From contig JABXGR010000007.1 in the NCBI GenBank assembly GCA_013538805.1, positions 1 to 64,000 of the forward strand: 64,000 nucleotides of DNA. Direction: 5' to 3'. Below the pieces are notes generated by a model. The model was not told the origin of the DNA and did no database searches. It saw only the letters and a program-made list of their open reading frames with translations. This document shows positions 16,248-16,437 of this stretch, piece after piece (the stretch's first letter is position 1; every line of letters starts with the position of its first letter). The DNA comes from Candidatus Nitrosocaldus schleperae (GTDB taxonomy: Archaea > Thermoproteota > Nitrososphaeria > Nitrososphaerales > Nitrosocaldaceae). The translations under genes were made by a program, and so were the position numbers.

Positions 16248-16394
16248 TGGTAGCGGGGGGTGGATTTGAACCACCGTTCTGCGGGTCTCTCACTAGAGGC
16301 TATGAGCCCGCCGGGATAACCAGGCTTCCCCACCCCTATAGGGCATCTACCATCTAGCATTGCTTAATCAGCATCTATGTATGTATGCCTCGCT
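16248..16394 (-). tRNA. Initiator tRNA-Met (CAU) with acceptor-stem and anticodon-loop introns
   Basis: Reading on the minus strand from 16394: exon AGCG, intron 16390-16336 (55 bases), exon from 16335, anticodon-loop intron 16300-16287 (14 bases), exon to 16251 and an encoded CCA (16250-16248). After removal of both, 78 bases fold as a full cloverleaf: acceptor AGCGGGG/CCCCGCT, D stem GGGA/TCCC, anticodon stem GCGGG/CCCGC with loop CTCATAA, T stem GGTGG/CCACC. A1-U72 plus three G-C pairs at 29-31/39-41 mark the archaeal initiator. Without the first intron the acceptor stem has mismatches at 2-71 and 3-70. Intron 1 fits bulge-helix-bulge: GTAG/CTAT central helix, bulges CGA and AGG, inner helix GGCAT/ATGCC. 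Intron 2: central CTCA/TGAG, bulges TAG and AGA, outer helix the anticodon stem. Confidence 0.88.
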
Positions 16395-16427: not shown

Positions 16428-16437
16428 TTTTATTAAA
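16428..16437. promoter_or_regulatory. TATA element between tRNA-Met and the sugar dehydrogenase
   Basis: TTTTATTAAA on the plus strand (TTTAATAAAA on the minus) lies about 38 bases upstream of the AGCG exon of the tRNA on the minus strand, and about 28 bases upstream of ATG 16461 on the plus strand. It could serve both. For the tRNA this position fits a 5' end at 16394, not one at 16337, which supports the acceptor-stem intron. Confidence 0.5.

Follow-up and report, generated by a model that had tools for sequence, protein, structure and literature searches.

The initiator tRNA-Met gene of Candidatus Nitrosocaldus schleperae, a hot-spring ammonia-oxidising archaeon, is, as judged from its sequence, genuinely interrupted within the acceptor stem at position 4/5, and its leader carries a short strand complementary to the 3′ end of the tRNA. 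The gene occupies positions 16394–16251 on the minus strand of the window (the whole stretch of 64,000 nucleotides that was analysed). It is read here as the single functional initiator gene of the genome, containing two introns, whose leader would act as a surrogate acceptor strand during splicing; the probability of this reading is put at roughly 0.78.

Both ARAGORN and Rfam call a contiguous minus-strand tRNA-Met(CAT) with its 3′ end at 16248/16251. Read in that way, the acceptor stem is mismatched at pairs 2-71 and 3-70, as the preliminary description had pointed out. Its proposal that the proper 5′ end lies upstream holds: joining exon 1, AGCG (tRNA positions 1–4, 16394–16391), to GGGTGGGG (from 16335) gives AGCGGGG, which pairs exactly with CCCCGCT, and removes an intron of 55 nt (16390–16336). 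The minus strand reads ...TGGTAGTGGGGAGT-AGCG-AGGCAT...ATGCC-CTAT-AG-GGGTGGGG.... The junctions form a relaxed bulge–helix–bulge (BHB) motif, and every part of it described earlier is present: a 4-bp centre GTAG/CTAT (16396–16393 and 16341–16338), flanking 3-nt bulges CGA and AGG that hold the cut sites, and a 5-bp inner helix GGCAT/ATGCC (16389–16385 and 16346–16342). The choice between 3/4 and 4/5, ambiguous in this genome, is settled by several relatives that read CTACAAGGGTGGGG, with only three G residues before T8; in relatives with CTACAAGGG, the stem is thus restored by position 4/5 only. When the 150 nt upstream were dinucleotide-shuffled 20,000 times, AGCG with a 4-bp centre arose by chance in 0.2% and AGCG with a centre and an inner helix of at least three Watson–Crick pairs in 0.005%; the observed five-pair inner helix was never reached among these shuffles.

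Exon 2 (positions 5–37, anticodon CAT) extends from 16335 to 16301 and is followed by the second intron suspected in this tRNA, a canonical 14-nt intron at 37/38 (16300–16287) with a full BHB, in which the centre is CTCA/TGAG and the anticodon stem serves as the outer helix. Exon 3 (positions 38–73) lies at 16286–16251, with the CCA encoded at 16250–16248. The spliced product is a full cloverleaf with the normal archaeal initiator acceptor stem; the A1:U72 pair, the three G-C pairs (GGG/CCC) of the anticodon stem and the CAT anticodon identify it as an initiator tRNA-Met. The TATA element previously assigned to the upstream 5′ end is found as the TATA-like TTTAATAA at 16437–16430 and is conserved in the congeners. 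Position 1 of the tRNA lies 39 nt downstream of it and the complementary leader strand about 25 nt downstream, a spacing that agrees with a transcript beginning at the leader copy. The exons are colinear behind this one TATA element, so that the gene is neither split nor permuted.

An intact second initiator gene, the search for which had been recommended, was absent from the assembly, which spans 1.45 Mb and is 97% complete. This assembly contains a single match to the initiator T-arm/acceptor pattern, a single match to the D-stem/anticodon pattern and no copy of uninterrupted AGCGRGGTGGGG. Since the initiator gene is single in this assembly, a silent locus with an intact backup is unlikely. 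The 4/5 intron is common to all six genomes of the genus Nitrosocaldus, to Ca. Nitrosothermus koennekii (G006) and to a genome of one further family (G007), that is, to eight genomes of three genera (G003, G006 and G007 are multi-contig assemblies), with intron lengths from 14 to 59 nt. Intron base pairs were tabulated directly, the MAFFT intron alignment being too gappy for pair counting. The BHB is constant or covarying: the centre pairs GTAG with CTAC or CTAT in all eight genomes, and the inner helix varies between GGCAT/ATGCC, GACAT/ATGTC, GA/TC and GGT/ACC. The genus has no outer helix (HBh′ form), whereas G006 has one of 2 bp and G007 one of 4 bp. Because the motif is conserved in eight genomes, its origin by chance is untenable. 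The contiguous form called by ARAGORN and Rfam would suit a tRNA with a mismatched stem and a start at about 16338, or a silent locus accompanied by another initiator gene, but either is scarcely credible given the conservation of both disruption and BHB in eight genomes, the sole initiator-like gene in a 97%-complete assembly and a promoter positioned for the upstream end.

Across the class, an uninterrupted initiator 5′ end is found in 274 of 330 genomes; the remaining readable cases outside this clade are uninterrupted variants, with about 30 of the 330 left unassigned. An exact scan for the intron 3′ junction, with one genome per species, gave five tRNA matches, all of them in Nitrosocaldaceae. 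The other 13 of the 18 matches were discarded as containing no tRNA, and most of them read as Walker-A coding sequence.

While the preliminary description was right about the intron, the initiator identity and the second intron, it missed the leader strand complementary to the 3′ end. This strand, TGGTAGTGGGG (11 nt, 16408–16398, minus strand), pairs with the 3′ end CCCCGCTACCA over 11 bp, including the CCA and one G·U pair, when the precursor is folded. The duplex has an energy of −22.1 kcal/mol; in comparison with shuffled leaders, p is about 0.001. All eight initiator genes with the 4/5 intron have such a duplex, with energies between −17 and −23 kcal/mol (p ≤ 0.007 in every run, values that overstate independence because the genomes are related). 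Among the initiator genes without the 4/5 intron, none of 41 has a stand-in strand; their mean is −6.1 kcal/mol, with none below −14.0. The two sets of energies differ with a Mann–Whitney p = 5e-6, calculated on phylogenetically correlated genes. In G006, the leader AAAG pairs with the trailer CTTT, in place of the TGG:CCA pairing of the genus.

A second example lies within the window, in tRNA-Gln(TTG) on the minus strand. The leader stand-in AGCCCGG (28540–28534) precedes exon 1, AGCCCGGTGG (positions 1–10, 28532–28523); a 45-nt intron at 10/11 (28522–28478), with the BHB centre CGGT/GCCG and the inner helix GAGCAT/ATGCTC, separates it from exon 2 (positions 11–73, 28477–28415), and the CCA is encoded up to 28412. 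This intron was missed by ARAGORN and Rfam, and both miscalled the acceptor stem. Stand-in strands recur in genes for tRNA-Gln (10/11), Ala-GGC (7/8), Ser-TGA and Trp (8/9) and Ser-GCT; the tRNA-Ser introns, with their different D-arm, and the Ala intron of G007, with its relaxed centre, were read by hand. Nineteen genes from four genomes, with introns at 4/5, 7/8, 8/9, 9/10 or 10/11, average −17.0 kcal/mol, whereas the 10 genes with D-arm introns, in which no stand-in was found, average −6.7 kcal/mol; the two ranges do not overlap. Intron-free orthologues also lack the stand-in (Trp in G006 and G007, Ser-GCT in G000 and G001). In most genes with a stand-in, its first nucleotide lies about 25–28 nt past the TATA element, where transcription is expected to begin, and the leader as a whole is of ordinary length. 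The rule has its edge in two genes: tRNA-Met (eMet) of G006 (L156), with a 9/10 intron and a weak stand-in of −10.4 kcal/mol, and tRNA-Arg-CCT of G007 (L171), with a D-stem intron, a poorly defined BHB and no stand-in. The Ala-GGC stand-ins of G000 and G001 are also among the weak or distant ones, with p of about 0.1–0.17 in a 40-nt window.

A search of 398 Thermoproteota genomes for AGCCCGG-N(0-12)-AGCCCGGTGG gave 19 matches, 17 of which are tRNA-Gln genes. All 17, including those from families far from Nitrosocaldaceae, are interrupted at 10/11, the search having been selected on the leader copy and not on the intron. The copy was present in none of the uninterrupted Gln genes found in 119 of these genomes. 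The other two matches were set aside as chance occurrences with no tRNA there. Some of the distant Gln genes with the 10/11 intron and leader copy (L189–L201, L207) have extra introns in the anticodon loop and T-arm.

The leader copy might be a functionless scar, left when the intron arose by local duplication of the tRNA 5′ end. The exact AGCCCGG copy adjoining exon 1 in Gln accords with this, as do mobile-element models of tRNA disruption, which leave upstream 5′ fragments (Caldiarchaeum, PMC3293823). Such an origin is nevertheless improbable as the whole explanation. From the copies compared, the stand-in strand tracks complementarity rather than identity: that of Ala pairs A3 with U70 despite the G3 of the exon, that of Gln in G003 is GGCCCGG, and an initiator copy reads AGTGGGG. 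Moreover, the copies reach opposite bases 73–76, which are absent from exon 1 (pairing in Ser extends into positions 73–75), and they are retained from Nitrosocaldaceae to distant Thermoproteota families. It was also considered that the leader copy might be the true mature 5′ strand, followed by a longer intron at about 7/8. The initiator copy of G006, a perfect AGCGGGG, would fit, but no BHB accommodates the join, and the copy in this genome would produce a U·G pair at 3-70. In Gln, the copy does not have the T8-G9-G10 required in the mature tRNA; in Ala, it would replace the identity pair G3:U70 by A3:U70. With no BHB and with failures in both Gln and Ala, this arrangement was rejected as very improbable.

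The preferred reading, that of a leader acting as a surrogate strand, starts from the position of the BHB centre, which occupies acceptor nucleotides in these genes: A1-G2 in the initiator, 2–5 in Ala, 3–6 in Trp and 5–8 in Gln. For this reason, the true 5′ strand would be unavailable to the 3′ strand until splicing has taken place. The leader would replace it, pairing with the 3′ strand (66–76) and keeping this strand and the T-arm in an acceptor-like helix, while the freed 5′ strand (A1, G2) would build the BHB centre with the intron. EndA (α2β2, with a broad-specificity loop) would then cut and RtcB would ligate; the restored AGCGGGG would displace the leader from the 3′ strand by strand exchange, after which RNase P could remove the leader. 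Other tRNAs with a BHB centre on acceptor nucleotides (introns from 4/5 to 10/11) would use the same solution. With the BHB imposed, the predicted gain from the leader duplex is −14.8 kcal/mol at 37 °C and −8.5 kcal/mol at 70 °C, and without the stand-in, exon 2 (GGGGTGGGG) is predicted to invade the 3′ strand. In the free minimum-energy fold, the leader duplex persists but the BHB is lost, by 1.8–2.2 kcal/mol. Leader pairing that covers the CCA may also postpone end processing until splicing is complete. In Methanopyrus kandleri, tRNA ends are normally processed before introns (PMC3695527), and acceptor-intron genes may thus need the reversed order.

Selection could instead have favoured the duplex chiefly because it shields the unspliced precursor from RNase P, tRNase Z or aminoacylation, and not because it helps the BHB to fold. 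It often spans 73–76, including the CCA; leader:3′RCCA pairing slows RNase P in bacteria (PMC9433436), and the normal trimming of ends ahead of splicing in M. kandleri points the same way. This emphasis is rather unlikely, however, as the duplex is confined to genes whose BHB centre draws on acceptor nucleotides; genes with D-arm introns, whose precursors would equally need guarding, lack it. It is probable, with somewhat less assurance than for the initiator gene itself, that a selected, leader-encoded surrogate strand is a general cis element wherever an intron sequesters the acceptor 5′ strand, and that strand exchange couples intron removal to end maturation across Thermoproteota.

According to Sugahara (2008) and Chan (2011), noncanonical archaeal tRNA introns are reportedly spliced by an (αβ)2 EndA. 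The preliminary description had anticipated a splicing endonuclease able to handle such sites, and the genome is predicted to encode one, with catalytic and non-catalytic subunits and a Crenarchaea-type loop. In the α subunit (192 aa), the catalytic residues Tyr, His and Lys are in place, and its alignment with Aeropyrum pernix EndA extends through the Crenarchaea-specific loop (GKPLGIPKPKDAEF), the function of which has been described (PMC12397907); its Lys-Pro-Lys (KPK) is the counterpart of A. pernix K44-P45-R46. The second paralogue (244 aa) lacks the catalytic His and is likely to be the β subunit. The pair is as expected, at the sequence level, for a broad-specificity (αβ)2 enzyme able to cut relaxed BHB motifs. 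RtcB is also encoded, and the genome contains many further noncanonical introns, in Gln, Ser-TGA, Ala-GGC, Trp, Lys, Asp, Ala-TGC, Ala-CGC and Glu genes.

Noncanonical introns of Thaumarchaeota, (αβ)2 EndA and the Thermoproteales 3/4 intron are already known (PMC8450103, PMC4090602, PMC4033280). The earlier remark that acceptor-stem introns are best documented in Thermoproteales needs qualifying on two points of background: an acceptor-stem intron at 3/4 is on record in Thermoproteales (PMC4090602), and noncanonical introns as such had been recorded in Nitrososphaerota, with 107 listed for Thaumarchaeota using tRNAscan-SE 2.0 (PMC8450103). The gene described here shares with other noncanonical archaeal introns the BHB or relaxed BHB at exon borders, the α/β endonuclease and the presence of several introns per gene, but differs in the 4/5 position within the initiator acceptor stem and in the leader-encoded surrogate strand. 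Like the Thermoproteales 3/4 introns, its intron is inside the acceptor stem; unlike them, it lies one position later, in Nitrososphaerota and in an initiator tRNA. In the split and permuted tRNAs of N. equitans, Caldivirga and Thermofilum pendens (the iMet of which is another disrupted initiator gene), flank pairing likewise holds precursor halves for the BHB. Here, by contrast, there is one colinear transcript, and the flank is base-paired to the acceptor 3′ strand of the mature tRNA, from which it would have to be displaced later. In the bacterial leader:3′RCCA pairing (PMC9433436), the 5′ leader also pairs with the 3′ end, the slowing of RNase P being a bacterial finding; there, however, an intact acceptor stem is extended by a few pairs, whereas here the leader replaces the acceptor 5′ strand. 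In the open-access literature searched, no report was found of an initiator 4/5 acceptor-stem intron or of a leader stand-in or pseudo-acceptor pairing. The recurring pattern suggests a previously undescribed way to fold such precursors.

An acceptor-stem intron poses a folding problem in that one strand is needed for both the stem and the splicing motif, a conflict that a stand-in leader would solve. The resulting rule is predictive: a stand-in is expected when the BHB centre uses acceptor nucleotides. It would account for the spread of introns into positions that otherwise block tRNA maturation, and provides a practical sequence cue for tRNA genes missed or miscalled by current programs.

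To our knowledge, the published maximum is three introns per archaeal tRNA. The initiator tRNA-Met gene of G007 (L094, G007:C46, minus strand) is best read with four, at 4/5, 37/38, 52/53 and 59/60, each with a BHB or relaxed BHB, one above that maximum. The initiator gene of G006 (L083 / L116) has three, at 4/5 (14 nt), at 37/38 (14 nt) and in the T-loop. Other Nitrososphaerota initiator genes (L032, L036, L046–L050) have a T-stem intron at 52/53, and L046–L048 also have a D-loop intron; multi-intron initiator genes thus appear to be common in this order. The initiator gene L036 lacks an acceptor intron, but its leader contains a stretch, GGCGAGG, that complements the 3′ end of the gene (−14.0 kcal/mol) and may be a relic or a chance match.
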